Shown in pieces: positions 26,834 through 61,443 of a DNA stretch of 64,000 nucleotides. Below the pieces are notes generated by a model. The model ran no database searches and was not told the origin of the DNA. It saw only the letters and a program-made list of their open reading frames with translations. Position 1 is the stretch's first letter; each line of letters opens with the position of its first letter. Both the position numbers and the translations under genes were made by a program. The stretch comes from Lacimicrobium alkaliphilum (GTDB lineage: Bacteria; Pseudomonadota; Gammaproteobacteria; Enterobacterales; Alteromonadaceae): the NCBI RefSeq assembly GCF_001466725.1, contig NZ_CP013650.1:682001-746000 (forward strand). The letters run 5' to 3'.

Positions 26834-27928
26834 ATGACAGATATGAATGTAGCCATTGATCAGACCGAGGACTTTGATCAGACAAAAGCAGAAAACTTTG
26901 CCGAGCGCCTTGGTGAAATGCTCAACACCGGCGCAACGGTAGTGATGATTTCTCTGGGCCATAAGCTGAAAATATTTGACCATCTGGCCGATATGCCGCC
27001 ATCGGGCAGTGAACAGATTGCTGAGAAAACAGGACTTAGCGAACGATATATTCGTGAGTGGCTGGCAGTGATGGTGGTGTCGGGCATTGTGGCCTATAAC
27101 CCGGAAGACAAGACCTATTACCTTTGTGCGGAGTATGCCGCCTGTCTGACCACCGATGCCGAACTGGGTAATATGGCAGTATTCGCCCAGCACACCTCGC
27201 TGTTAGGGCAGATGGAAGAGTCTATGATCCGCTGTTTTAAAACTGGCGAGGGTACCAGTTATGGAGACTACCCCTGTTTTCATCAGATTATGGCCGAAGA
27301 CAGCGGGCAAACTGTGGTGGCAGGGCTGTTTGAACATATTCTGCCGCTGGTGCCGGGTATTCAGGCCAGGTTGGAACAGGGTATTGATGTACTGGATGCA
27401 GGCTGTGGCCGGGGGGCGGCATTGCTGGCAATGGCAGAACATTATCCCAACAGTCGTTTTGTTGGCTATGATCTTTGTGCCGATGCCATAGACTTTGCCA
27501 ATGCACAGGTAAAAGAACGAAAACTGACCAACATCCGCTTTGAGCAAAGGGATCTGACCGGCTACATGGAGGCAGAGCGCTGGGATTTTATTACCAGTTT
27601 TGACGCGGTGCATGATCAAAAGGATCCTCAGGATCTGATTGACGGACTAAAGATGTCACTGAAATCCGGTGGCACCTACCTTATGCAGGATATTGGCGGT
27701 TCCGCAAAGCTTGAAAATAACCTGGATTTTCCTTTTTCAGCACTGCTTTATGCCGTTTCCTGTGCTCATTGTACGCCAGTGTCAATAGGCCAGGGCGGAA
27801 AGGGTCTGGGTACGATGTGGGGCTGGGAAACGGCTGAAACCATGCTTCTTCGTGCGGGTTTCAGAAGCGTAGAACACCATCGCCTTGAGCACGATCCTAT
27901 GAATGTATGGTTTGTTTCTCAGGTGTAA
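26834..27928 (+). CDS. Winged-helix class I SAM methyltransferase
   Basis: 364-aa protein of the Rv2258c-like family. An N-terminal winged-helix dimerisation domain (about 20-110, SERYIREWLAVMVVSG) is followed by a Rossmann methyltransferase domain (about 180-350) with motif I VLDAGCGRGAALL and the post-I acidic residue in FVGYDL. Substrate unknown. It is followed after 128 bp by a PLP decarboxylase. A clear paralogue is encoded at 51705-52772 in the kinase cluster. Confidence 0.85.
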   Translation: MTDMNVAIDQTEDFDQTKAENFAERLGEMLNTGATVVMISLGHKLKIFDHLADMPPSGSEQIAEKTGLSERYIREWLAVMVVSGIVAYNPEDKTYYLCAEYAACLTTDAELGNMAVFAQHTSLLGQMEESMIRCFKTGEGTSYGDYPCFHQIMAEDSGQTVVAGLFEHILPLVPGIQARLEQGIDVLDAGCGRGAALLAMAEHYPNSRFVGYDLCADAIDFANAQVKERKLTNIRFEQRDLTGYMEAERWDFITSFDAVHDQKDPQDLIDGLKMSLKSGGTYLMQDIGGSAKLENNLDFPFSALLYAVSCAHCTPVSIGQGGKGLGTMWGWETAETMLLRAGFRSVEHHRLEHDPMNVWFVSQV

Positions 27929-47696: not shown

Positions 47697-48569
47697 ATGG
47701 TACAGATCAATTCGGTCCATTTAATATGTGAAGACGGTGTAGAGTTGAGGGCTAACCTCTTTGTGCAAAATGAGGGATCCTGTAAAGGATCGATACTTAT
47801 TCTGCCCGGTGTTGGTATCAGTCAGTCACTCTATCGTCCTTTTGCGCACTATTTAGCAGAAGGCGGTTTTCAGGTTCTGACAATTGATTATCGTGGTATC
47901 GGTCAGTCTTTCCGCAAGGAACTCCCTCCACATAAGCTCAGTCTGAATGCCTGGGCGAAACAGGACGCAGTAACGGCTTTTCGTTATCTGCAGAAGCTGG
48001 ATGAAAACCCGGTGCTGATATTTGGTCATTCTTTTGGCGGGCAGGCTGTATGTCTCGCAGAGGAGCTGGATGATGCACAAGGGGTTGTGATGGTGGCTAG
48101 TCAGTCAGGTTATTGGCGCCACTGGCGGGGGATGGGACGGGTAAAGCTGTGGTTTTTCTGGCACTGCTATCTGCCGTTTTTCAGTCAGCTTGGCACCTAT
48201 ACGCTAAGTACTCCTTTATTTGATGGCCGGTTGCCGGCTGGTGTGGCCAGAGAGTGGGCCAGATGGGGGCGGGACCCCGAATATCTCAAAGGGCATCATG
48301 CTGAGGTGTCAGAGCGGTTGCTCAACAGAGATAGGAATATTGTCGCTTATGCATTCAGCGATGACGATTTTGCCCCCCCAGCGGCGGCCAGAGCGCTTTG
48401 GCAATGGTTTCCCGAGGATTGTTTGCAAGGTCATATTATGACTCCTGAAGAACTCGGTGTATCCCGGATTGGCCATTTTTCGGCTTTCAGATCATCATTT
48501 GAGAGCACCCTGTGGCGAAGCTGGTGTAGGGATTTTGATAATTTCCTGAGTAATGATTCTGATCTATGA
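47697..48569 (+). CDS. Alpha/beta hydrolase (COG4757-like)
   Basis: 290-aa cytosolic alpha/beta hydrolase. N-terminal LICEDGVELRANLF, oxyanion region LILPGVGIS, nucleophile elbow LIFGHSFGGQA (Ser112), acid region SDDDFAPP, and catalytic His in SRIGHFSAFRS. Good GAGGAGG ribosome-binding site. Its stop overlaps the next gene by four bases (ATGA), so this is the first gene of a three-gene operon ending in a kinase. Confidence 0.87.
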   Translation: MVQINSVHLICEDGVELRANLFVQNEGSCKGSILILPGVGISQSLYRPFAHYLAEGGFQVLTIDYRGIGQSFRKELPPHKLSLNAWAKQDAVTAFRYLQKLDENPVLIFGHSFGGQAVCLAEELDDAQGVVMVASQSGYWRHWRGMGRVKLWFFWHCYLPFFSQLGTYTLSTPLFDGRLPAGVAREWARWGRDPEYLKGHHAEVSERLLNRDRNIVAYAFSDDDFAPPAAARALWQWFPEDCLQGHIMTPEELGVSRIGHFSAFRSSFESTLWRSWCRDFDNFLSNDSDL

Positions 48570-49042
48570 AGCTGGTGTTTGGTAAGGGGGATAAAAAATG
48601 TGGCCTTCTTACCTGTATTCGCGATGATGGCAGTCAAACCAGCAGTGTGTTGCCAGAGCATGGAATATTGCCCCACGACCTGATCCATTATGTGGTAGAA
48701 AAACATTTCAAGATGGACGGAGCCTTTTATGCGCAGGTAAAAGCGGGCGCTAATATTAACTTCAGTCTTGAGCACAACCAGGCCTCACGATCTGTCGGTG
48801 ATACGTTGCAATCCTGGCAAACTGAGTCATTGGTTGAGGCGTTGCAGGCACTCATGTGGAGTGGAAACTACAGTTACACAGACTTCAGTTACCTGGTCGA
48901 ACAGGCGTGTCAGGCCAGGAAGATACCGCTTCCGACAGACATGAGCGAGTCACTGTTTGTTGCCATATGCGCTGAAATATATGTGTTGACTCAGCGTTGG
49001 CAGCGGTTGCCAGTCGGTGGCAATATCGAGTTGATATTCTGA
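48566..49042 (+). CDS. Uncharacterised protein with a PHDLIHY motif
   Basis: 158-aa cytosolic protein, translationally coupled to the hydrolase. It contains CIRDDGSQT and LPHDLIHYVVEKHF, a pattern I have seen in small uncharacterised families, with a helical C-terminal half. No catalytic role assigned. It lies 108 bp upstream of the Ser/Thr kinase. Confidence 0.75.
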   Translation: MKLVFGKGDKKCGLLTCIRDDGSQTSSVLPEHGILPHDLIHYVVEKHFKMDGAFYAQVKAGANINFSLEHNQASRSVGDTLQSWQTESLVEALQALMWSGNYSYTDFSYLVEQACQARKIPLPTDMSESLFVAICAEIYVLTQRWQRLPVGGNIELIF

Positions 49043-49150: not shown

Positions 49151-51367
49151 GTGCAATCAGACGACCTCCTGTTGACCGGTGGTGGCAATATCAGTCCGAC
49201 TCCACAGCTTGGAGGGCTGGCGGCCGCACAGGCTATGCTTGGAAACAGAATTGCCGGTTTCAGCTTAGATAAGGTGCTGGCCGTTTCCCATCAGTCCTGG
49301 GTGTTTCTGGCCCTGAAAACTGAAGACAATGTTCGGCAACAGGTCGTGGTAAAGCTGTTACCACCTTCTACATTTAGTGCTTTGCAGCAGCAACTGTTCG
49401 AGCGGGAAAAGCAATTACTGGCCAGCTTGTCTCATCCTGGCATTGCGGCTTTTATCGATGCAGGCAGGGCTGATAGTGGCTGTTCCTATATCGTCATGGA
49501 GTATATCGAAGGCACCGATATTCGCCGATATTGTGACAGTAAGCGACTGTCGGTCTCTCAGCGGGTTCAGATGATTGTTAAGGTGCTGGACATACTGAAA
49601 TTTGCGCATTCCAGACTGATCATTCACCGTGACCTGAAACCGTCTAATATCCTGGTGACAGAAGACGGCTATATCAAGTTGCTGGATTTTGGTATCGGCA
49701 AACTCATTGATGACGTCAATGATGAACGCGCCGACAATACGCTGATTTTTACACCTCAGTACGCGGCCCCTGAACAATTGTGTAACCAGCGGGTGTCGGC
49801 AGCCACAGATATTTATCAACTGGGACATGTACTCTATAAGCTGCTAGCTGGCGCACCGGCCTTCGATGTGGGTGAGGGGAATATCGCCGAACTGTATCAG
49901 GCTATACTAAAAAGTGACCCGCCGCCGCCTTCACTGCGTTTCAGGCGATTGGCGTCCGGATTGGGCAAGCGGCGTATTGCGCGCCGTCGACAATCGTCAA
50001 TCGGCGACCTGAGTAAGACACTTGACGCGGACCTGGACAAAATCACTCTTAAGGCTATTGAGAAACAGCAAGAGCGCCGATACCTGACAACCGATGCCTT
50101 CAGCCAGGATTTGCATAACTGGCTGGAAGGAAGACCGATCTCTTTGTCACATCATCTGTGGACCTACCGTTTACGCAAGTATATTTGGCGTCATCGACAG
50201 GTAGTGGGTGTATCTGTGCTGTTCCTGTTGCTGCTGGCAGGTGGGTTGATCAATCATCTTTCCCGGTTACAGCAGGCCCAGCAACAGACAGCTCTTCAGG
50301 CCAGAAAAGCTGAAGATGTCGCAAGTTTTCTGACTGATATGCTGTTGATGATGGATGTGAGCCTGGATGATGCGGCCCTTCCCAGTATGGCCGACCTGGT
50401 AGACTATGCTGGTGAGCGCCTGAATGAAGCCAAAGATATGCAAGAGGATGTGCGGGCCAGGCTGGCAGTGATTGTTGCAAATGCCCAGGGGCGACTGCAG
50501 CAATATGAGCAAGCCAGGCAAACCCTGGAGACCCATACCGGGATCCTGGCCTGGCTCAACGATGATGACAGGATAGCGGATGCGCGCGTTGCGCTGGAAT
50601 ATGCAGAAGCGATATATGATGCCGGAAACTATCAGCAGACCCGGAAAATTCTTGACAAAATTAAGCTGGGTTCGTTGTCCTTGTCGTTTCCGCTTGATTA
50701 CCAGTTATATAAACTGGATGCGGAAGTAAGCCGTAAGGAAGGGGATTACGAGCAGGCGCTGGCCAGTGCCCGAAGGGCAAGACGGTTATTGGTCGAACAC
50801 CGCGGCGATGATCAGGCCGGAAGGGATATTAACAATCTGCTCGGTGGGATCCTGATAAACCTGCGTCTTTACGAACAGGCCACTGAAGCTTTCGAGCAGA
50901 GCCTGGCTCTGTCAAGAAAAATGGGCCAGCAAAGAGCCTTCGGAACTCTGGTTATCCAGAGCAATATGGCCATTTTGTATAACATCACCGGCAATACAGA
51001 GCGAGCCGAAGAGCTGGTCAGAGATAGTCTGGATAAGATGCGCGAATTTTTCCCCGAACGCTTTTCCAATATCGCCAGCCTGCTTAATACCTATGCGGTG
51101 GTGTTAAAGAACAAAGGTGATATTGACGCTGCCATTGGGCAGGTTAAACAAGCCATCGATATTTATCAGCGTCACTACGGCCCTGACTATGCAAAGCTGG
51201 TCTCCCCCTATTCCAATCTCAGTGAATGGTACCGACTTCAACAACAATGTGACCGGGCTCAGGTCGCTTATGAACAAGCAGCCCGTATCAACAATCTTGC
51301 TTTCCCGGATAAACCGCTGCCGGGTTTTGACTGCTACAGCGATGTGACCGATGAAACGATTTATTAA
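49151..51367 (+). CDS. Ser/Thr protein kinase with TM helix and TPR domain (PknT/EcfP-associated type)
   Basis: 738 aa. Kinase domain (about 35-310) with VAIK Lys68, catalytic HRDLKPSNIL (Asp161), DFG Asp179 and AAPEQL in the activation segment; the glycine loop is atypical. TM helix about 350-366. C-terminal TPR-like repeats (about 400-730; EQATEAFEQSLALSR, DIDAAIGQVKQAIDIYQ) may sense a protein or peptide outside the cytosol. GTG start, AGGGAG upstream. It is predicted to phosphorylate the ECF sigma factor encoded 2.7 kb downstream. Confidence 0.92.
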   Translation: MQSDDLLLTGGGNISPTPQLGGLAAAQAMLGNRIAGFSLDKVLAVSHQSWVFLALKTEDNVRQQVVVKLLPPSTFSALQQQLFEREKQLLASLSHPGIAAFIDAGRADSGCSYIVMEYIEGTDIRRYCDSKRLSVSQRVQMIVKVLDILKFAHSRLIIHRDLKPSNILVTEDGYIKLLDFGIGKLIDDVNDERADNTLIFTPQYAAPEQLCNQRVSAATDIYQLGHVLYKLLAGAPAFDVGEGNIAELYQAILKSDPPPPSLRFRRLASGLGKRRIARRRQSSIGDLSKTLDADLDKITLKAIEKQQERRYLTTDAFSQDLHNWLEGRPISLSHHLWTYRLRKYIWRHRQVVGVSVLFLLLLAGGLINHLSRLQQAQQQTALQARKAEDVASFLTDMLLMMDVSLDDAALPSMADLVDYAGERLNEAKDMQEDVRARLAVIVANAQGRLQQYEQARQTLETHTGILAWLNDDDRIADARVALEYAEAIYDAGNYQQTRKILDKIKLGSLSLSFPLDYQLYKLDAEVSRKEGDYEQALASARRARRLLVEHRGDDQAGRDINNLLGGILINLRLYEQATEAFEQSLALSRKMGQQRAFGTLVIQSNMAILYNITGNTERAEELVRDSLDKMREFFPERFSNIASLLNTYAVVLKNKGDIDAAIGQVKQAIDIYQRHYGPDYAKLVSPYSNLSEWYRLQQQCDRAQVAYEQAARINNLAFPDKPLPGFDCYSDVTDETIY

Positions 51368-51704
51368 CCTGTCTCACTGATATAAGACCGGACCGGTGCG
51401 GTCACAGTCTGTAACCCAATAGCCGCGCCCCCTCGTGGCACATCATTTCAGTTTTTCCCGTTTGATTAAAGGTGAGAAGGAATCGTGATTCCTGACACAT
51501 CGATTTCTGTGACTCTGTCAGGTCTTTTGTATTGACGGTCTGCGAATGTCAGAGCCGGTCAGCCCAGGTAAGACTCAGGAAGCAGTCTTGAGTACAGTCG
51601 GCACAGAGTCGGTATCTGGCGGAACTGCCAGGGTGCGGGTCACAGTGTTAAAAACATATTACTGGCTGATTGACTACATTCAGCCAGCGGAATTTAGGAA
51701 AACC
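51368..51704. other. 337-bp intergenic region
   Basis: Between the kinase and the second methyltransferase. It contains a small inverted repeat GACCG...CGGTC (about 51390-51405). A frame open from ATG 51546 would extend the methyltransferase by 53 residues but lacks a ribosome-binding site there. No gene is supported. Confidence 0.45.
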
Positions 51705-52772
51705 ATGAACGAAGAAATAGTTAATATCGACAAGGTGAATGAGTTTGTCGGCAAGGTGATGACGGATATCGGCGGCGCTTATGCGGTACTTTTGTCTTAT
51801 CTGGGAGATCAATCGGGTATTTACAAAACCCTGACCGAGTGCGGACCTGTTACCTGTGAAGAACTAGCCAGCAAGGCAAATGTCGATGCCCGTTACCTTT
51901 TGGAGTGGTTAAGTGCGCAGACTGCCGCCGGGTATATTGAGTATGATGAAACCAGCAATACCTTTTTTATGCTTCCGGAGAAAAGTATTGTGCTGGCTCA
52001 GGAAGGCCATCCGGCCTGTATGCAGGGGTTGTTCCAGCTAGTGGTCTCCCAACATGCTACCCATGAGAAGGCCTTGCACACATTTGTGTCAGGCGAGGGA
52101 CGGCCCTGGGGAGAGCATCACAGCTGTTGTTTCTGTGGGACTGATCGTTTCTTCCGCCCGGGCTATGAGGTAAACCTGATTACAGACTGGTTGCCCGCTC
52201 TGGATGGCATGATTGATAAGTTGCAAAACGGCGCCCGGGTGGCGGATGTGGGTTGTGGGCATGGCTCGTCCACTATACTGATGGCGGATGCCTTCAGAAA
52301 CAGCCATTTTATTGGCTATGATTTTCATTCTGAGTCTATTGCCTCAGCCTCCAAAAATGCAGACGAGAGGTTAAGCCATCCTAACTGGCAGTTTGTGGCC
52401 GCCGGGGCGGCGCAGATTGAAGAGGGGGATTTTGATCTGATCTGTCTGTTTGATGCTTTGCATGATATGGGTGACCCTGTTGGTATTGCCCGACATCTGC
52501 GCTCGAAGCTTAAAGCTGATGGCAGCCTGATGCTGGTAGAGCCTCTGGCAGGAGATAAATTAACTGACAATCTGCATCTGCTCGGTCAGGTGTGCTACTC
52601 GGCTTCTACACTGATCTGTACTCCCGCCTCTAAGGCGCAGGAAGTTGGTTTGGCGTTGGGCGCCCAGGCCGGGGAGAAAAAATTAACCGAAGTATTAAAA
52701 AGCGCAGGCTTTACCAGTGTAAAAAGGGTGGCGGAAACGGACATCAATATGGTGTTAGAAGCAAAGGTCTGA
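51705..52772 (+). CDS. Winged-helix class I SAM methyltransferase (paralogue)
   Basis: 355 aa. Same architecture as the 26834-27928 protein: winged helix (about 20-110, DARYLLEWLSAQTAAGYIEY), motif I VADVGCGHGSSTILMADAF, post-I FIGYDFHSESI, then LICLFDALHDMGDP. An internal Cys cluster HSCCFCGTDRF is notable. The start at ATG 51705 has AGGA six bases upstream; the longer frame from 51546 is less supported. Substrate unknown. Confidence 0.87.
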   Translation: MNEEIVNIDKVNEFVGKVMTDIGGAYAVLLSYLGDQSGIYKTLTECGPVTCEELASKANVDARYLLEWLSAQTAAGYIEYDETSNTFFMLPEKSIVLAQEGHPACMQGLFQLVVSQHATHEKALHTFVSGEGRPWGEHHSCCFCGTDRFFRPGYEVNLITDWLPALDGMIDKLQNGARVADVGCGHGSSTILMADAFRNSHFIGYDFHSESIASASKNADERLSHPNWQFVAAGAAQIEEGDFDLICLFDALHDMGDPVGIARHLRSKLKADGSLMLVEPLAGDKLTDNLHLLGQVCYSASTLICTPASKAQEVGLALGAQAGEKKLTEVLKSAGFTSVKRVAETDINMVLEAKV

Positions 52773-52923
52773 CAGACCTGAGATGAACCAGACAGCCCGT
52801 TACCGGACTGTCTGTCTTTGTGTTAAAGCCCTTGAGATTAAAAGCCAAAACAAACCGGGCAATCCCGTCACAAAATCAGAGCATTCTGCGTAAACCTCCA
52901 TATGACTTTTACCGGAGAGCACT

Positions 52924-53523
52924 ATGAGGATTCCCGAAATCAATATTCGTCCCGCTAAACGCACCGATGCGCTCGATCTTGCGCAGTTGATAGACATTGC
53001 CGGGGAAGGCATACCCTCGTATTTGTGGCAGCAGTCTTGTGAGAAAGGGCAGATGGCACTGGAATATGGCTGTATGCGTGCGCAACGGGAAAGTGGGGGA
53101 TTTTCCTACCGCAATGCCAGAGTCGCCACACTTAATAATGAAGTGGTGGGTATGATTCTGGATTACCCGATTTCTAATCCCACAGAACAGGATCTGAAAG
53201 AACTGCACACCTTGCCAGAGGTCGTAAGGCCATTTGTTGAACTGGAGTATCAGGCAGGTGAGAGTTATTACATCAATGCCCTGGCGGTGTATGCGCCGCG
53301 TCGACACCTCGGGATTGGTAAGCAGTTGTTAAAGACAGCACAGAAAATAGCGGTACAAAAAGGCTGTCATAAGCTTAGTGTGGAGGTGTTTTCTGAAAAC
53401 CAGGGAGCGGTAGCCTTGTACAAAAAAATGGGTTTCGAGGTAACCGCTTCGACACCGGTTTTACTGCATCCCTGTCCACCCTATTACGATCAGGATGTGT
53501 TGCTGATGACTAAGCCTTGTTGA
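52924..53523 (+). CDS. GNAT N-acetyltransferase
   Basis: 199-aa single-domain GNAT. IRPAKRTDALDLAQLIDIAG starts the fold; YINALAVYAPRRHLGIGKQL carries the Q/R-x-x-G-x-G/A acetyl-CoA loop, and VEVFSENQGAVALYKKMGF the C-terminal helix. GGAG upstream of the ATG. Possible regulon member; acceptor unknown. Confidence 0.88.
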   Translation: MRIPEINIRPAKRTDALDLAQLIDIAGEGIPSYLWQQSCEKGQMALEYGCMRAQRESGGFSYRNARVATLNNEVVGMILDYPISNPTEQDLKELHTLPEVVRPFVELEYQAGESYYINALAVYAPRRHLGIGKQLLKTAQKIAVQKGCHKLSVEVFSENQGAVALYKKMGFEVTASTPVLLHPCPPYYDQDVLLMTKPC

Positions 53524-53620
53524 GCGATGGTGACTGTTCTGAATCTGTATCCGGTAAATGTCACTTAATTATACTGTTCTGCGTTATATAAGTATTTGCA
53601 GTAACAAACCGGGAGGAAAA

Positions 53621-54085
53621 ATGACTGTCAAACATCAAATATCCAATCGAGCTTCTCTGAATGATCAACATTTTCAGGTGCTGATGGAGAGTGGACAATA
53701 TCCTTTGTCTGAGTTTGACCACGAGGCCCACCTGCGACTTGCCTATGTGTGTCTGATATCAAGGGATGTGGTGATGGCACTGGATTACTGCAGAGATGTG
53801 ATCAACAGGTTGCTGCGTCTGAATAAGGTGGATCCACATAAGTATCACGAAACTATAACCTGCGCCTGGTTAATGACGGTTCGTCAGCGAATGTCTGACA
53901 GCCCGTCTACTGACAGCTTTGCGTCTTTTATCCGCCAGCATCCTGAGTTAACAGATAACCGGCTAATCCGGCGCCATTATTCAGATTCCAGATTGTTTTC
54001 ACCCCTGGCGCGGGAGCATTTTTTGCTGCCAGACAAACAACCCTTTGGCTGGGTCAGTCCTTCTTCTCTCGGCTCAGCTGTGTAA
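53621..54085 (+). CDS. Uncharacterised FDHEAHLRLAY protein
   Basis: 154-aa soluble protein. Start at ATG 53621 with GGGAGG five bases upstream; the frame is open further but without a signal. It contains SEFDHEAHLRLAYVCL and KYHETITCAWL, a His-rich pattern (HxxHxR...YHxT) of a widespread uncharacterised family that I cannot name with certainty. Convergent with the sigma factor, 15 bp apart. Confidence 0.78.
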   Translation: MTVKHQISNRASLNDQHFQVLMESGQYPLSEFDHEAHLRLAYVCLISRDVVMALDYCRDVINRLLRLNKVDPHKYHETITCAWLMTVRQRMSDSPSTDSFASFIRQHPELTDNRLIRRHYSDSRLFSPLAREHFLLPDKQPFGWVSPSSLGSAV

Positions 54086-54100
54086 CCCAGTTATGTATTT

Positions 54101-54664
54101 TCAGTTAGTACTCAACTTAGACTGAATCAGCTCTTTGGCCTCATTCCACCGGCGTTGTACGGTACGTCGCGAAACATTCAGCGCCTCAGATACCTCTTCA
54201 TTGGTCAGGCCGACGTAGTATTTCAATTCGATGATTTTTACCAGTTGCGGGTTCGCTTCATCCAGTTCAGACAGAACCTCGTTGACCAGAATGACCTGTT
54301 TCTCCTGGCTGGTATCGGCGCAGAGCTCCTCGGTGTAGGTCACTTCCTGTGCATTACCACCTCGCTTGGCCGCACTCTGGCCTCTGGCTATATCCACCAT
54401 AATCTGGCGCATGGCCGTTGAGGCAACTGCAAAAAAGTGATCCCGGTTATGCCAGGTTTGTTCATTAGTGAACAACTTTAAAAATGATTCATGAACTAAT
54501 ACAGTGGGACTCAGGTCGTTACTGCTGGATTGTTTGAGCCTGACGCACGCCGCTTTGCGCAACTGATGATAAATTTTGCTCATCAACTGGTTTTGTTCGA
54601 GCTGAGATTTTTCCTGATACGCATTTAACGCCAGGGTCAGCTCTTCTTCAGCAATAGATTTCAT
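54101..54664 (-). CDS. ECF sigma factor of the kinase-activated (ECF43-like) type
   Basis: 187 aa with region 2 (about 25-95) and region 4 (about 125-182, GLTNEEVSEALNVSRRTVQRRW). In ordinary ECF factors region 2.2 carries an acidic D-A-E-D block before LVQETF. Here it is SPTV before LVHESF, with Thr54 in the Glu position. In V. parahaemolyticus EcfP, phosphorylation of a Thr at this place by PknT supplies the negative charge needed for RNA polymerase binding. The two nearby kinases and the divergent phosphatase support the same mechanism. Confidence 0.88.
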   Translation of the reverse strand: MKSIAEEELTLALNAYQEKSQLEQNQLMSKIYHQLRKAACVRLKQSSSNDLSPTVLVHESFLKLFTNEQTWHNRDHFFAVASTAMRQIMVDIARGQSAAKRGGNAQEVTYTEELCADTSQEKQVILVNEVLSELDEANPQLVKIIELKYYVGLTNEEVSEALNVSRRTVQRRWNEAKELIQSKLSTN

Positions 54665-54741
54665 CCAATTTGCTCCATATTCGTCACGCTTTGAGGCTAA
54701 ATTGCGTATAGGTTAATAAGATTAAAGTCGGGAGCTTCAAT

Positions 54742-55518
54742 TTGCTACCTCACCTTTTGGTAAATAAGGACAACTCTGACGGGCGTTTCATGGTGTTTGG
54801 TGATGTGCACGGCCAATACTCAAGCTTAATGCATCTTTTACAATATCTAAACTATCAGAACACTGAAGATCAATTATTGTTCGTCGGAGATCTGATTGAC
54901 CGCGGGGCTGACTCTCTGGCTTGCCTGGAATTACTGCATGAGCAGGGTGTTTACTCATGTTTAGGCAACCATGAACAGATGGCTCTGGACAGCATTAAAG
55001 ATAGCAGCGGTCTGATGCACGAGTTCTGGTCTGCCAATGGTGGCTGGTGGTTTGACGCTTTGTCAGAGGATAAGCAGCAGCGGGTAGAAGCGCTGATTAA
55101 AGATCATATGGCATATACCCTAGAGTTTCACTGGCAGAATAAGCGTATCGGTCTGGTTCATGCCGATTTTCCAGAAGATCTGAACTGGCATGATCTGCAC
55201 AAACCCGGCGTTGAGATAAAAAAAGTGCATCTGAATCAGATGCTATGGTCACGTACCCGAGTTCGGGGGCATGTCAAAGGCGCTGTTCAGGGGATCGATC
55301 TTGTTGTTGCCGGACACACTATGCTGGAACAGGCCGAACTGTCAGACAATATGTTTTTTCTCGACACAGGTGCTGCAGCGATGAACAGAAAAACGGAGTT
55401 ATCACAGCCCCGCCTATCTGTGCTGGTATTCGGGAAAGAGATTAATCTTTACAGTATTGATCACATCGGTGAAGTCAGGGAACACCCACATTCCATTAAT
55501 GCGTTCTGGTCAGAGTAG
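54742..55518 (+). CDS. PPP-family protein phosphatase (PrpA-like)
   Basis: 258-aa calcineurin-like metallophosphatase. The metal-binding motifs of the PPP family are all present: GDVHGQY, GDLIDRGAD, GNHEQMAL, and downstream His in VHADFPED and VVAGHTML. Lambda-phosphatase-type protein phosphatases dephosphorylate Ser/Thr. TTG start with GGGAG seven bases upstream. Divergent from the sigma gene by 77 bp. Likely reverses kinase action on the sigma factor; inferred. Confidence 0.88.
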   Translation: MLPHLLVNKDNSDGRFMVFGDVHGQYSSLMHLLQYLNYQNTEDQLLFVGDLIDRGADSLACLELLHEQGVYSCLGNHEQMALDSIKDSSGLMHEFWSANGGWWFDALSEDKQQRVEALIKDHMAYTLEFHWQNKRIGLVHADFPEDLNWHDLHKPGVEIKKVHLNQMLWSRTRVRGHVKGAVQGIDLVVAGHTMLEQAELSDNMFFLDTGAAAMNRKTELSQPRLSVLVFGKEINLYSIDHIGEVREHPHSINAFWSE

Positions 55519-55652
55519 ACACATCCCCGAGCTGTATTCCACACATTGGCACAGAGTTTAAACAGATTGCGTTGATATAAAGAGGCGCCTGTTATCTGTT
55601 TTTAAACCCAGACAGCGCCATTAATGAATTCAGCTCAAAAGGAAATAAGTCT

Positions 55653-56030
55653 ATGAAACTATCAGGTGTGATAACTACAGTTATTCTGACGACATTACTT
55701 GCAACAGGTTGCGCGACTGATATGAAGTCCAAGTATGCCAGTCTGGATAAATTGTCTGATACAGATCGCAACAACGCGTTAAAGGAGTGTTTCATGGAAG
55801 AAAATAAACCTGATCGGCAGGATTGCATTGCCAGATATGCAGACCCCGCCATTGGCTACAAGTGTGAACGTATTCAGGTCACGGGTACACGCTTTGGAAC
55901 AAGGGTTTGCTCTACTAAACGTCAGCGTGATGAAGTGGCCAGAAACAGCCAGGAAGCGTTCAGTCAGGCACAAATGCGTAATAAGTTCACTAAGGACCAG
56001 GTCGCTCCACCTCAGGGCGGTAAAAAGTAG
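55653..56030 (+). CDS. Small Cys-rich lipoprotein, copy 1
   Basis: 125-aa lipoprotein: signal with lipobox ATGC (Cys about 20). The mature part has four Cys in ECFMEENKPDRQDCIA, YKCERIQVTGTRFGTRVC, likely two disulfides, and a basic Gln/Lys tail. AAGGAAA ribosome-binding site. It is a close paralogue of 61075-61443, and the two flank the second kinase and the TonB receptor. Function unknown. Confidence 0.85.
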   Translation: MKLSGVITTVILTTLLATGCATDMKSKYASLDKLSDTDRNNALKECFMEENKPDRQDCIARYADPAIGYKCERIQVTGTRFGTRVCSTKRQRDEVARNSQEAFSQAQMRNKFTKDQVAPPQGGKK

Positions 56031-56158
56031 GTGGTGCCTTTTTACTACCCAAGGTTTACGCGCGTTACCAGTTAGATAGCCTTTTGAAAAGCCCGGACTT
56101 GTGTTTGGGCGTTCTGGTGAGTTCCTGCCGATAAGTCTAAGATAAACAGAAATCAACG

Positions 56159-58648
56159 ATGCAGCTGGTCATGAATAGTGATTTGGTAACAGGGGGCGGC
56201 GTGTCCCTGCTCGGGGAGCATGACGTTTCGGAGAGTGAACTCACTCAGGTCGGTGATATTTATGGTGCATATCGCGCAGAGGAACTGATATCCGAAACCA
56301 GGCTGTCGAGAGTGTTTCTGGCAAGCCGTATCGACGGACTCTATGAACAAACGGCTATTCTTAAGATTTTACATCCGCAGCTAACCTTATTTCACGCAGA
56401 AGCCTTTCGTAACGAATGGTCGATACTGGCCAGGCTCAGTCACCCTCATATTGCTCAAATCATTAATGCTGGCGTCAGTGCCGGTGGCGCTCCTTACATG
56501 GTGATGGAGTACGTGGATGGTCAGCCGTTGCACCACTATCTCAATCGCAAAAAGATGGGGGTCAAGGAGCGTTTGCTCTTGTTCCAACAGGTGCTCGATG
56601 CCGTGGCTTATGCCCATCGTAATCTGTGTGTGCATCAGGATTTGAAACCTTCCAATATTCTGGTAACCGCAGAGGGGCAGGTTAAGTTGCTGGATTTTGG
56701 TATCGCCAGTTTACTCAGCCGTGAAAGCGGTGATGCAACCTATCAGCCTTTTGTGGGATATACGCCCCGATATGCCAGCCCTGAACAGTTGCGTGGTGAG
56801 AAAAGCGGAGTATCGGTGGATATATGGCAACTTGGAATTTTGTTGCTTGAGGCCGTGCTGGCAATTGACAGCAAAAATATAGATTTGCAGAGGCTGCGTG
56901 ATGGCACAGTGGATTCGGTGCGCAGTCTGCTGCTCTGTGATTTAGGCATGAGTCAGTGGAGACGCTGTGCAATACGTACTAAAGAATCACCCCGGCGGAT
57001 TATTCGATATCTGAATTCAGAGCTCATCTGGATCATCGACAGATGTTTATGTAGCGAGCCAACGGCTCGCTATCTGTCAGTAGAGTCCCTGATTGCGGAT
57101 ATTGAGGCGTTTCTAAGCCAGCATCCTGTCAGAGCCTTTCCCTCTTCAGGCCTGGGCTATCGAACCAAAAAGTGGTTGGCACGGAATAAAAGTGCCATTT
57201 TAGCCGTTTTTATGGTCATGAGCGGTGTTGCGGCCACTACTCTGTGGTATATCAATGCGCTAAAAACGTACAACCAGCAATTGATCCTTGAGCGCAGCCG
57301 GGCCAACGAGCTTTCACGTTTTCTGATTGATTTAATCGAGACGATTGGCGTCGGTACAATCGCCAAACATCCGGAGGCAACGGAAGAATTACTGGCTAAA
57401 GCCGAAGCATTCCTGGCACATCAGGGCAATCGCAATCAAAGTACCCAGGCCGAGTTGTTGTCCATATTAGGGAATATTTATGTTTCTATTGGTCTTAAGG
57501 AAACGGGCATCCAGCAACTTGAGACAGCGTTGCGTCAACAACAGAATCTGAAACATGAGGACCCTTTGATGAAGGCCAAGATTCTGCGGAATCTGGCAAA
57601 TGGCTATAGTTTTGTGGGTGATTTTACCCGGGCGGATAAATATATTCTGGATTCCATCGCTGCTCTGCACCCTTTGCCGGGCGATGAAGCTGCATCGCAA
57701 CTGGTCAGTTCATATTTGGCTCATTCGTTGATCAAAATAGCCCAGGGCCAATATGAGAATGCAGTAGTCATGGTTGAAAAGGCAAAACAGATATTTGATA
57801 ACAAGGTTCAGCCAGATCAGGAACTGCAGCACCAGCTGTTCTACCAACTGGCTTTTGCTTACCATTACAATGCCCGCTTTTCTGAAGCTGAACCTTATTA
57901 TCGGCAGGTCTATGAGTTCTTTTTACAACATTATGGTGCAGGCAACCTGGAAACAGCTGAACTGGTTGTGGATTACGGGTACCTACTTGCGCAACAGGGT
58001 AAGTTTCACACAGCCCGTAATCTGGTCAATGAAATGTTGTTGCAGATCCAGCAAAACTTATACCCGGATACAACAGTGAAAGCTAAATTGTTGGGGCTGA
58101 GCGGGTATATCTACTACGAACTGAAAGACTTTGCCAATGCCTATAAAAGATTTAATCAGGCCTATATATTGAATCGCAAACTTTTAGGCAGTGAGCACCG
58201 CTTTACACTTGGAGATCTCTCCCGCTCTGCGGGCGCTAAGATAGGTTTGGGGCACCTGGATGAGGCCAGGATAATGCTGGCTGAAGTGGCTCAGGGCTAC
58301 GCCCGGACTTTGCCGCAAGAGCATCCCCGCTATGCCGGGCTCTATGTCAATCTGGGGCTGTTGGCTTTGGCTGAAGGAGATAGCCAGATGGCCATTTCGC
58401 GATTTACCCGGGCGCTCTCTTTACGGCGCAATGTTTATGAGGAGGGGCACCCTTTGATTTCCAATATTAAAAGACATTTGGGCAAGGCCCACTGGCTGGC
58501 GGGAGACTCACAGCAGGCATCGGTATACCTGCAAGAGAGTTACAGTGCTCTGGCAGTGGTACCAGGGGAACATCATCCATACGCCGAAGAGATCAGAGAG
58601 CTGTTGAAGAGGATCGAAGAAAAGGCCCAGAATATAAATAGGTTGTAA
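56159..58648 (+). CDS. Second Ser/Thr kinase with TM helix and TPR domain, non-RD
   Basis: 829 aa. Kinase domain (about 35-330) with Lys69, catalytic HQD instead of HRD (His159-Gln160-Asp161), NILV, DFG Asp179 and YASPEQL. TM helix about 344-364. Long TPR array (about 400-815; blocks such as AEPYYRQVYEFF, AYKRFNQAYILNRKLLG and MAISRFTRALSLRRNVY). The catalytic Asp and DFG Asp remain, so activity is possible, but the missing Arg removes activation-loop control. Start at ATG 56159; 56171 also possible. Paralogue of the 49151 kinase. Confidence 0.9.
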   Translation: MQLVMNSDLVTGGGVSLLGEHDVSESELTQVGDIYGAYRAEELISETRLSRVFLASRIDGLYEQTAILKILHPQLTLFHAEAFRNEWSILARLSHPHIAQIINAGVSAGGAPYMVMEYVDGQPLHHYLNRKKMGVKERLLLFQQVLDAVAYAHRNLCVHQDLKPSNILVTAEGQVKLLDFGIASLLSRESGDATYQPFVGYTPRYASPEQLRGEKSGVSVDIWQLGILLLEAVLAIDSKNIDLQRLRDGTVDSVRSLLLCDLGMSQWRRCAIRTKESPRRIIRYLNSELIWIIDRCLCSEPTARYLSVESLIADIEAFLSQHPVRAFPSSGLGYRTKKWLARNKSAILAVFMVMSGVAATTLWYINALKTYNQQLILERSRANELSRFLIDLIETIGVGTIAKHPEATEELLAKAEAFLAHQGNRNQSTQAELLSILGNIYVSIGLKETGIQQLETALRQQQNLKHEDPLMKAKILRNLANGYSFVGDFTRADKYILDSIAALHPLPGDEAASQLVSSYLAHSLIKIAQGQYENAVVMVEKAKQIFDNKVQPDQELQHQLFYQLAFAYHYNARFSEAEPYYRQVYEFFLQHYGAGNLETAELVVDYGYLLAQQGKFHTARNLVNEMLLQIQQNLYPDTTVKAKLLGLSGYIYYELKDFANAYKRFNQAYILNRKLLGSEHRFTLGDLSRSAGAKIGLGHLDEARIMLAEVAQGYARTLPQEHPRYAGLYVNLGLLALAEGDSQMAISRFTRALSLRRNVYEEGHPLISNIKRHLGKAHWLAGDSQQASVYLQESYSALAVVPGEHHPYAEEIRELLKRIEEKAQNINRL

Positions 58649-58701: not shown

Positions 58702-60867
58702 TTACAGGCTCCAGCTAACGGAAGCCATCACATTGCGCGGTGCACCGTAATACCCCTGTGCCCAGTACAGGCTGTTAAGGTACGTTTCATCAGTCAGGTT
58801 GTTGATGTTGAGGTTCAGCGAAAGATTCTGATTAATCTCATAGCTGGCCATCAGGTTTACCAATGCGTAAGCATCCTGTCGGGTGATGATCTCCTCTCCC
58901 GCATTGACATAAAGCCCTGACACTATGCCCTGAGAGCGGTAGATATCGTCCTGCCACTGCACACTGGCACCGACACGCAGTTTTTCCAGCATCGGCAAAC
59001 GATACGTGGTTGCCAGCCTGAGGCTTTTCTCTGGTGTGTAAGCTTCGACCTGATCATCGCCGTCGATATCGAAACTGGTCAGGCCGATACTGGCTTGCAG
59101 GCCGGGCAGTACCTCACCAGCCAGCTCCACCTCAAAGCCCTGGCTGCTAATGCCCTCGGCACCCTTGTACACATCTTCCGGTACCCCGGTGTTGGGGTTT
59201 TCAATGGTAGTATCAAAGACGGCCAGGTTAACCTGTTCGATATCGAACCAGGCCAGAGTCAGTAATGCATTGCCATTAAACAGCTGGGATTTGATACCGA
59301 TTTCTCTGGCCTCACCGGTCAGCGGGCCCAGACGTTCGAAGTTACGATCTTTTTCCCTTTGTGCCACAAAGGTCTCGGTGTAACTGGCGTAGGCGGTGAG
59401 CTGTTCGTTAATATCATAGATCAGACCCAGGTAGGGAATACTCTGACTGTCATCACGGGTTTCATCCAGCCCGTAAGATTCGCCTTTTGTCTGCCAGTCA
59501 TTATGGCGCAGGCCGGTAATAAGATTGATATTTTCATTTAAGTTAAAGCGGGCCGCCAGATACCAGGCTTTTTGCGTATCGGTGACATCACTGCCGGTCA
59601 GGCCATCGGTAAACTCCGGTAGTGGGGTGTTACCGTCCCAGTTCTGCATGGCGGGTAGTAGAGGAAAGCCATTCCCTGTGTGAAAGTCATACAGTGATTT
59701 ATCCTGATAACTCAGCTCGGCCCAGCTGGCACCGAATACCACTTCATGATGGCGTCCAAAGGCGGTAAATTCGCCGCTGGTGTAAATATCCAACAGGTCC
59801 TGCTCATCGTCCAGATCATATTCACTGCCGTATCCCACCAGGCCAAGACCCGTTTGTGGATCCAACCCTGTGGCGGCATCACCCAGGTAGGTATAGAACA
59901 GCAGGCTGTCTTCATCGGTGCGGTTACGGCTATAACTGACGCGTAACGACCAGTTACTGCTGAAACTGTGAGTCAGGTCGGCAAAGCTGCGCTGTTCTTC
60001 AACCTGCCAGTTGGACCAACTGGCTGAAGTGCTGGTGGAAGCGTCAAAGTTGGTGGGGCTGCCATCACCATAATAGAGCGTCAGGGCACCCCAGAGGTTG
60101 CCTTTTGCATCGCTGGTATGACTGCTATGGCCCAAAGTCAGCAAGCTGTCATCGCCAAGCTGGAAATCGAGCACGCCATAGATGACGTCTTTTTCCAGCT
60201 CATACCTGTCCAGGTAGGATTCTTTATCCTGTCTGGCAATCACCAAACGGCCTCTGGTATTGTCGCCAATACGGCCTGATACATCTCCTTCCAGGCGCGC
60301 ATTGCTCCAGGAGCCATAGCTGCCGGTAACATTGGCCTGAAAATCCTCTGTGGGGCGTTTTCGCACCAGGTTGATAGTGGCTGATGGGTTCCCCGAACCT
60401 GCCATCAGGCCATTGGCGCCTCTGACGACCTCAATGCGTTCGTAGATGGCGGTATCCATATCACCGTGGGCATTGCCGTTGATCAGTGGCAATCCAAGGC
60501 CATCGATCTGAAAGTTGGTGATATCAAATCCCCTGGCTTTGAAGTAAGTACGGTCGGTTTCTACCTGCTCCACATTGACGCCGGTGACATTACCTAACAC
60601 GTCATTGACATTATCCAGCGCAAAGTCATTCATTTGCTCGCGGCTGAACACACTGATGGACTGGGGCGTTTGCTGAATACTCAGGTTAAGTTTACTGGCA
60701 ACCTTTGCATCTTGTGCAAGATAGCCTGTGTTGCGACTACTGGTAATTACCAGGGTTTCGATAGACCGGAGATCCGAATCAGGGACCTTATCAGGTTGTT
60801 GCTGAGCCATCGTTGGTGAGGAAGCCAGGACGGCCAGGGCTAAAGAGGAAAGAGAGAGATATTTCAT
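58702..60867 (-). CDS. TonB-dependent siderophore receptor
   Basis: 721-aa outer-membrane receptor. Signal peptide MKYLSLSSLALAVLASS (start at 60865-60867; upstream codons would spoil it), TonB-box-like stretch, plug domain (about 60-200: QQTPQSISVFSREQMNDF, GVNVEQVETDRTYFKARGF, IERIEVVRGANGLMAGSG), and a 22-strand barrel ending in the aromatic ASVSWSL. The plug start is that of ferrichrome/ferripyoverdine-type receptors (FhuE, FpvA). A Fur-box match lies upstream. Confidence 0.93.
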   Translation of the reverse strand: MKYLSLSSLALAVLASSPTMAQQQPDKVPDSDLRSIETLVITSSRNTGYLAQDAKVASKLNLSIQQTPQSISVFSREQMNDFALDNVNDVLGNVTGVNVEQVETDRTYFKARGFDITNFQIDGLGLPLINGNAHGDMDTAIYERIEVVRGANGLMAGSGNPSATINLVRKRPTEDFQANVTGSYGSWSNARLEGDVSGRIGDNTRGRLVIARQDKESYLDRYELEKDVIYGVLDFQLGDDSLLTLGHSSHTSDAKGNLWGALTLYYGDGSPTNFDASTSTSASWSNWQVEEQRSFADLTHSFSSNWSLRVSYSRNRTDEDSLLFYTYLGDAATGLDPQTGLGLVGYGSEYDLDDEQDLLDIYTSGEFTAFGRHHEVVFGASWAELSYQDKSLYDFHTGNGFPLLPAMQNWDGNTPLPEFTDGLTGSDVTDTQKAWYLAARFNLNENINLITGLRHNDWQTKGESYGLDETRDDSQSIPYLGLIYDINEQLTAYASYTETFVAQREKDRNFERLGPLTGEAREIGIKSQLFNGNALLTLAWFDIEQVNLAVFDTTIENPNTGVPEDVYKGAEGISSQGFEVELAGEVLPGLQASIGLTSFDIDGDDQVEAYTPEKSLRLATTYRLPMLEKLRVGASVQWQDDIYRSQGIVSGLYVNAGEEIITRQDAYALVNLMASYEINQNLSLNLNINNLTDETYLNSLYWAQGYYGAPRNVMASVSWSL

Positions 60868-60909
60868 CAGTACTACCGGATTAGAGCGGAAACATTTGCG
60901 CATGCTAAT

Positions 60910-60928
60910 GCAAATGATAGTGGTTATC
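60910..60928. promoter_or_regulatory. Fur box upstream of the siderophore receptor
   Basis: The 19 bases match the Fur consensus GATAATGATAATCATTATC at 14 positions, including ATGATA and TTATC. They lie 43-61 bp before the TonB receptor start, so iron repression is likely. Confidence 0.6.
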
Positions 60929-61074
60929 AGCAAGATCTGTGTAATGGGTAAATTTTATGGATTTCGTACAGGGGTAAAGGATAAAAATGAGCTGGTTGAT
61001 TTTTATACAGATGGAAGCTTAAATTACTATATCCCGGTGTTTTTTCGGGTCACAAAATGGTGGGAGCCAGGAAG

Positions 61075-61443
61075 ATGAAATTTATACAATTAGCGGGCAT
61101 TCTGAGTTTATTGCTGATAGGTGGTTGCGCCTCAGATATGTCTTCAAAATACGCAAGTCTGAACAATTTGTCTGACACGGAGCGAAACAATGCCCTTAAA
61201 GATTGTTTTAAGGAGGAGAATAAGCACGATCGCCAGGAGTGCATCGCTGAGTTTGCTGATCCTGCTATCGGTTATCAGTGTGAGCGCATACAGGTGACCG
61301 GGACACGATTTGGCGAGCGGGTATGCACAACAAAGCGTCAAAGAGACGAAGTAGCCAGAGCCAGTCAGGACGCATTCAGCCAGGTGCAGATGCGCAATAA
61401 GTTTACCAAGGGGCAGGAAGCTGCGCCTGCAGGCCGCAAGTAA
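61075..61443 (+). CDS. Small Cys-rich lipoprotein, copy 2
   Basis: 122-aa paralogue of 55653-56030. Lipobox IGGC (Cys about 19). Conserved DCFKEENKHDRQECIA, FADPAIGYQCERIQVTGTRF and VCTTKRQRDEVAR keep all four mature Cys. The start at ATG 61075 has AGGAAG just upstream; an earlier in-frame start lacks a signal peptide. The N-terminal and C-terminal ends have diverged most. Confidence 0.85.
   Translation: MKFIQLAGILSLLLIGGCASDMSSKYASLNNLSDTERNNALKDCFKEENKHDRQECIAEFADPAIGYQCERIQVTGTRFGERVCTTKRQRDEVARASQDAFSQVQMRNKFTKGQEAAPAGRK

Follow-up and report, generated by a model that had tools for sequence, protein, structure and literature searches.

Can a sigma factor that is switched on by phosphorylation have its own off-enzyme encoded next door, and why would two kinase genes lie beside it? 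These questions are raised by a locus of Lacimicrobium alkaliphilum, whose genome is a single contig of 4.38 Mb; the window, the whole stretch of 64,000 nucleotides that was analyzed, covers genome positions 682001-746000. A preliminary description had reported four genes within 9.5 kb, namely two transmembrane (TM) Ser/Thr kinases with TPRs, an ECF sigma factor lacking the acidic motif of region 2.2, and a phosphatase, and all four are present at window positions 49151-58648. It had passed over the genes lying between them, the lack of a Gly-rich P-loop in both kinases, and the HQD motif of the second. The first kinase gene, K1 (49151-51367, plus strand, GTG start), encodes 738 amino acids. 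K1 and the sigma gene are separated by a wHTH-methyltransferase gene (51546-52772, plus) and a GNAT acetyltransferase gene (52924-53523, plus), both recognized by family matches, and by an open reading frame (ORF) of 175 aa, H175 (53558-54085, plus), that has no match in Pfam or NCBIfam. The sigma gene itself (54101-54664) is on the minus strand, and the PrpA/lambda-like PPP phosphatase gene (54742-55518, plus, TTG start) points away from it. LIP (55653-56030, plus), encoding a small putative lipoprotein, lies downstream of PPP and ahead of the second kinase gene, K2 (56159-58648, plus, 829 aa). With these other genes in between, K2 is 1.5 kb and K1 2.7 kb from sigma. Upstream of K1, a 158-aa ORF (48566-49042) has no match in Pfam, NCBIfam, or, among the loci examined, the corresponding locus of Bowmanella dokdonensis.

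The sigma factor scores 158 bits on TIGR02999, which passes the cutoff of 126.15, and 131.6 bits on PF07638. Its sigma2.2 motif is SPTV, which contains no acid and places Thr54 at the third position; the B. dokdonensis motif is identical. In the sections available to us of two reports on ECF43 sigma factors, the acidic DAED motif is missing from these proteins, which have a phosphorylated Thr instead, at the third position of STTA in EcfP and of QATE in EcfK (PMC8999054, PMC13147305). The window sigma has no acidic DxxD, has a Thr in place, and has a Ser/Thr kinase gene nearby, which supports the earlier proposal that it is a phospho-switch sigma of the EcfP/EcfK kind; the name ECF43 is applied by analogy, through the published motif descriptions. 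As far as those accounts go, it resembles EcfP/PknT of Vibrio parahaemolyticus in the missing acidic motif, the Thr at the phospho-position, and the neighboring TM kinase gene (PMC8999054), and EcfK/PknS of Xanthomonas citri in pairing an ECF sigma with a TM kinase that has C-terminal TPRs (PMC13147305). EcfK, unlike the window protein, has QATE rather than SPTV and is described as also needing T106 (PMC13147305). The linker of the window sigma reads QEVTYTEE in the part taken to correspond approximately to T104-S110 of EcfK. Among 102 other sigmas in an alignment, Thr occupies the Thr54-equivalent position in 93, and an acid occupies the fourth sigma2.2 position in 25. The genome holds two TIGR02999 sigmas and seven Pkinase matches over the cutoffs. 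The other TIGR02999 sigma (genome positions 4135892-4136434) belongs to an ordinary divergent sigma-kinase pair (4133168-4136434, L132) that is ECF43-like and without PPP; it has LQATALVNEA at sigma2.2 and a counterpart in a congener (G002, L135).

What kind of kinases are K1 and K2? Both match Pkinase (129 and 131.5 bits, respectively), both have C-terminal TPRs, and simple hydropathy puts the start of a hydrophobic segment near residue 350 in each, in keeping with the TM-TPR architecture first ascribed to them. Their Hanks-type kinase domain is clear from Pkinase and structural matches in everything apart from the P-loop: the catalytic Lys, the HxD Asp, the Asn, and DFG are present, and two alignments of 50 show no variation at the catalytic Lys, Glu, Asp, Lys, Asn, and DFG. 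K1 has HRD, DFG, and a VAIK-type Lys; K2 has HQD, not HRD, and is non-RD. The P-loop, VSHQSWVFLA in K1 and SETRLSRVFLA in K2, contains no glycine in either kinase or in their orthologues, versus three to five in the remaining 46 of the 50 aligned homologues. In a wider set of 149, the only rows with zero glycines are these four, one more from the B. dokdonensis genome (L288), and an incomplete one. K1 and K2 group with their orthologues in a single clade. Its support is 98/91 in a thorough tree (55 rows, bootstrap unsettled) and 93, not starred, in quick trees, and its neighbors are mainly sigma-paired kinases. For L065-L124, the ORPH label used in the kinase trees and in the RD tally below is unreliable; sigma genes are unannotated there, and several of these kinases are sigma-paired. 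K1 and K2 share an N-terminal TGGG stretch; their identity is 33% over the kinase domain and 21% from the TM segment onward, a difference that divergence of the sensors would produce. Judged by sequence, they are sister paralogues that lost their P-loop glycines.

Comparison of the window with B. dokdonensis gives a dN/dS of 0.08 for both K1 and K2, at a dS near 2 that is close to saturation. The AlphaFold models have mean pLDDT values of 87 and 88, and the best structural match of both is PknS (9EED). Both appear to have been maintained as kinases with a modified ATP loop, although the glycine-free P-loops mean that they may be weak or inactive. Could the RD residue tell which of them serves the sigma factor? 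It was tried as an indicator of cognate pairing and rejected, because sigma-paired kinases are mixed: outside the loci that also carry PPP, 56 are RD, 22 are non-RD, and 2 could not be parsed (n = 80). The nine kinases found with PPP and sigma elsewhere in the order (described below) are, like K2, non-RD, and K1 is RD. Synteny favors K1, which is the likelier cognate kinase on present sequence comparisons. Elsewhere in the genome, a kinase with a normal P-loop (genome positions 578404-580269, L133) is the nearest nonorthologous match of K1 in a sequence search; neither it nor the copy in a congener (G002:C49, L184) has a sigma ORF in the surrounding 13 to 14 kb.

The synteny in question is with B. 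dokdonensis (Alteromonadaceae), the source of the nearest named homologues. Protein identity is 78% for sigma, 77% for K2, 74% for K1, 70% for GNAT, 61% for LIP, 59% for PPP, and 54% over 119 aa for H175, and despite this 54 to 78% identity the gene order K1-GNAT-H175-sigma/PPP-LIP is kept. K2 is placed differently, 12.2 kb upstream of K1 and beside other genes, in a wider region that is syntenic but shuffled; in both species K1 and K2 are nevertheless <20 kb from the sigma gene. The wHTH-methyltransferase probably does not belong to the system, since its B. dokdonensis orthologue sits elsewhere, adjoining K2 rather than K1. It is related to a second one in the window (26834-27928). H175 and LIP have no match beyond the window and B. 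dokdonensis among the loci examined. A gene for a small putative lipoprotein paralogous to LIP (61057-61443) forms with it a pair that flanks K2 and a TonB-receptor-like gene (58702-60933), and the B. dokdonensis region likewise has two lipoprotein copies. Is the four-gene cluster a general feature of alteromonads? All four genes do recur together in B. dokdonensis, though with K2 at its distance of 12.2 kb, and among the genomes and loci searched they do so nowhere else. The congeners G001 and G002 have neither this PPP (best matches, 29.7 and 38.1 bits) nor this sigma. The four-gene unit is thus narrower than had been proposed. JGI data contain relatives of sigma (98%) and PPP (90%), each on a contig of 363,584, and further relatives fall to 46 to 49% for sigma and 38 to 43% for PPP.

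The phosphatase has intact metal-site motifs (GDVHG, GDLIDRG, and GNHE, plus two further His residues) in an alignment of 15. It had been called a divergent PrpA-like phosphatase. The divergent arrangement with sigma is as described and PrpA (NF008516) is matched with 141.3 bits, but this does not reach the cutoff of 326, and the PrpB-type score of 119.5 bits is also below its cutoff; PrpA/PrpB and the lambda-type PPPs are the closest models, and the nearest solved chain by sequence is the Ser/Thr phosphatase 1g5b (E, 1e-30). Unlike PrpA/PrpB and the lambda type, the window PPP adjoins a sigma factor and kinases. Is that position a coincidence? Matches to it of >80 bits occur in 15 other genomes in a set of 98 relatives. 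Among 394 genomes from the order, 72 have PPP (profile A1, E 1e-25), 47 have a PF07638 sigma (E 1e-12), and 8 have both. The two genes are separated by 17 to 162 bp in seven of these eight genomes with the window counted and in six of seven without it; in the remaining genome (G087) they are 48.5 kb apart. Under random placement, with genomes taken as independent, adjacency in six of seven would have a probability of about 1.7e-19, which is an order of magnitude only because the genomes are not fully independent. PPP-sigma adjacency exceeds chance. Beyond the order, a class survey of 369 genomes found PPP (E 1e-30) in 47 and sigma in 18 but both only in G533, on different contigs. The best 80 named loci of a genome-collection scan included 66 with a sigma ORF seen by profiles, and only in that of B. 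dokdonensis was a PPP within 5 kb of sigma. Most sigma-kinase pairs examined have no PPP.

PPP, sigma, and kinase genes do, however, come together elsewhere. Contexts assigned with small profiles gave nine such triads in the order besides the window and B. dokdonensis (L125-L127, L129, L130, L145-L147, and L188). They are spread over four families: f1 (G003, G017, G023, and G042), f6 (G231), f9 (G146), and f11 (G092, G202, and G225); the set of 98 relatives contributed G017 and G042, and G225 is absent from the order sigma list. The PPP-sigma-kinase module is rare, yet it recurs. A tenth triad possibly exists in G275 (L187), where a PPP near-identical to that of G092/G202 stands at a contig end. 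The triads resemble the window in keeping PPP, sigma, and kinase close together, with PPP adjoining sigma rather than the kinase in most of them. Unlike the window, each has one kinase in the stretch examined, and all three genes are on the same strand in seven of the nine; G017 has its kinase one gene away on the opposite strand, and in G042 sigma is on the opposite strand, 4.1 kb from PPP, with the kinase between. The sigmas checked by family (n = 4) all match PF07638 (55.6 to 92.9 bits), and one passes the TIGR02999 cutoff. Another difference from the window is a fourth-position acid in all nine triad sigmas. The phospho-Thr position holds Thr in seven; the other two have SPDD (G003, L126:9151-9762) and CPND (G042, L127:1752-2381), still with a kinase and phosphatase nearby.

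Did the module arise once? The clade tests concern groups that were named after inspection of the trees. A single triad clade that includes the window was rejected both for sigma, with near relatives of the window also included (p 8e-10), and for the kinase (p 6e-6). For PPP it was not rejected (p 0.125); in a quick tree the window PPP belongs to one clade (97), apart from another (97) that joins the PPPs of the nine other triads with eight nontriad PPPs. Repeated joining of PPP to separate sigma-kinase lineages, and an old gain followed by losses in some of them, are both compatible with these trees. L152, L153, and L154, sigma-kinase pairs that are close to the operon-type triads and have no PPP gene nearby, will be useful for weighing PPP loss against gain.

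The 77-bp gap between sigma and PPP holds a promoter-like element, CGTCACG-N16-CGTAT (54682-54709, plus), that reads towards PPP. Its boxes and their spacing are kept in B. dokdonensis, where the spacer has mostly diverged, and it resembles promoters of the ECF type, for instance the ECF41 consensus. A regulon read from this motif was tried and rejected, the genome having 3 matches versus 12 for the reversed control and so no excess. Relaxing the motif gives 3 matches in the window, where 0.46 is expected. One of these, GTCACA-N16-CGTA (52867-52892), lies 31 bp before the GNAT gene; B. dokdonensis, in which GNAT directly follows K1, has nothing corresponding to it. That the window sigma uses the element is a guess, because the genome count is not above the control.

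How might these parts work together? We favor a dedicated reversible phospho-switch in which K1 is the likelier cognate kinase and K2 a duplicated second input, and we put the probability of this reading, drawn from sequence and from the analogy with EcfP and EcfK, at roughly 0.55. The sigma factor would be inactive as made, since SPTV replaces the acidic motif at sigma2.2. A membrane kinase with its TPR sensor beyond the membrane would phosphorylate Thr54, and phospho-Thr54 would, by extension from EcfP/EcfK, supply the charge for RNA polymerase binding. The adjacent PPP would then remove the phosphate, as its linkage to sigma suggests. A dedicated phosphatase had been postulated before, and the recurrent PPP-sigma linkage in four families together with the B. 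dokdonensis synteny lends that idea support. K2, as a paralogue of K1, might feed another signal into this sigma or act as a competitor. PPP may be transcribed from the conserved 54682-54709 element and, if this were done by the window sigma, a negative-feedback loop would close, which is speculative. An elaborate version has two writers, the paralogous receptor kinases K1 and K2 with their derived ATP loop, each placing the mark on Thr54 under a periplasmic signal of its own; PPP would be the eraser, and the sigma factor would transcribe its own phosphatase from the conserved ECF-like promoter, so that the response limits itself. We think this quite improbable as a whole.

Some of the evidence pulls elsewhere. 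PPP need not act on sigma at all, and its target could be the kinases or another shared substrate, with a kinase alone controlling sigma as in EcfP/PknT. The two triad sigmas without the phospho-Thr that are still accompanied by PPP and a kinase speak for this; for that reason the PPP substrate is not fixed as sigma, and, given also the fourth-position acid in all nine, PPP may act elsewhere in the other triads. A parallel is found in X. citri, where PpkA and PppA, a second kinase and a phosphatase in the same type VI secretion system (T6SS) cluster as EcfK/PknS, are ascribed to T6SS assembly as a separate posttranslational pathway in the available text (PMC13147305, PMC6653060). That PPP lies beside sigma and not beside a kinase, both in the window and in most triads, points the other way. 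K2 is non-RD, as are the kinases of all nine other triads, and kinases of this type are usually independent of activation-loop phosphorylation, which weakens the case for the kinases as targets. Altogether we regard a target other than sigma as rather unlikely. The genes could also be chance neighbors, in favor of which stand the patchiness of the cluster and the absence of this phosphatase and this sigma from both congeners; set against PPP-sigma adjacency in six of seven other genomes and the block preserved in B. dokdonensis, the idea is highly improbable.

It is a serious possibility, if one short of even odds, that only one of the two kinases, K1 or K2, serves the sigma factor and that the other is a differently targeted paralogue held in place by local synteny. 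The separate location of K2 in B. dokdonensis fits this, as does the usual number of kinases: within 5 kb of sigma, the 47 order-level sigma loci have exactly one in 45, none in 2, and two in 0. Doubled kinases do occur, however, with at least two within 5 kb in 4 of the 66 sigma-bearing loci among the best 80 named ones (L209, L210, L214, and L265), K1 and K2 group as sisters in a region of the tree where sigma-paired kinases abound, and both stay within reach of sigma in both species. Alternatively, K1 or K2 might be a pseudokinase that antagonizes or scaffolds the active one. The loss of every P-loop glycine and the HQD of K2 would suit such a role, whereas the invariant catalytic residues and the intact predicted kinase folds argue against it, and we consider it unlikely. 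The reversible switch, with K1 as its likelier writer, remains our preferred reading.

How much of this is new? EcfP/PknT is described, in the portion of the report available, with one kinase and no phosphatase, whereas in the window PPP adjoins sigma and there are two kinases with glycine-free P-loops (PMC8999054). PknS has GxGGMG and H/YRD in the accessible account, unlike K1 and K2 with their P-loops devoid of glycine (PMC13147305). That a phosphatase switches EcfK off is offered there, in a 2026 paper, as a suggestion only (PMC13147305). In the available parts of PMC13147305, PMC8999054, PMC8103513, PMC6213207, and PMC6653060, no PPP phosphatase tied to an ECF43 sigma was found. A literature search joining sigma, kinase, and phosphatase, in a scope that leaves out the EcfP paper and the ECF classification, gave no match.

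Overall, phosphorylation-activated sigma factors are known with their kinases, and their switching off is the gap in the picture. The phosphatase genes that adjoin sigma in several families of one order are concrete candidates for the erasers, though the dephosphorylation of sigma by PPP is inferred from linkage. The window contributes, in addition, a pair of duplicated kinases with an unusual ATP-loop motif. A marine bacterium thus has, in one cluster, a probable phosphorylation-dependent sigma factor, a candidate off-enzyme, and two related candidate kinases.
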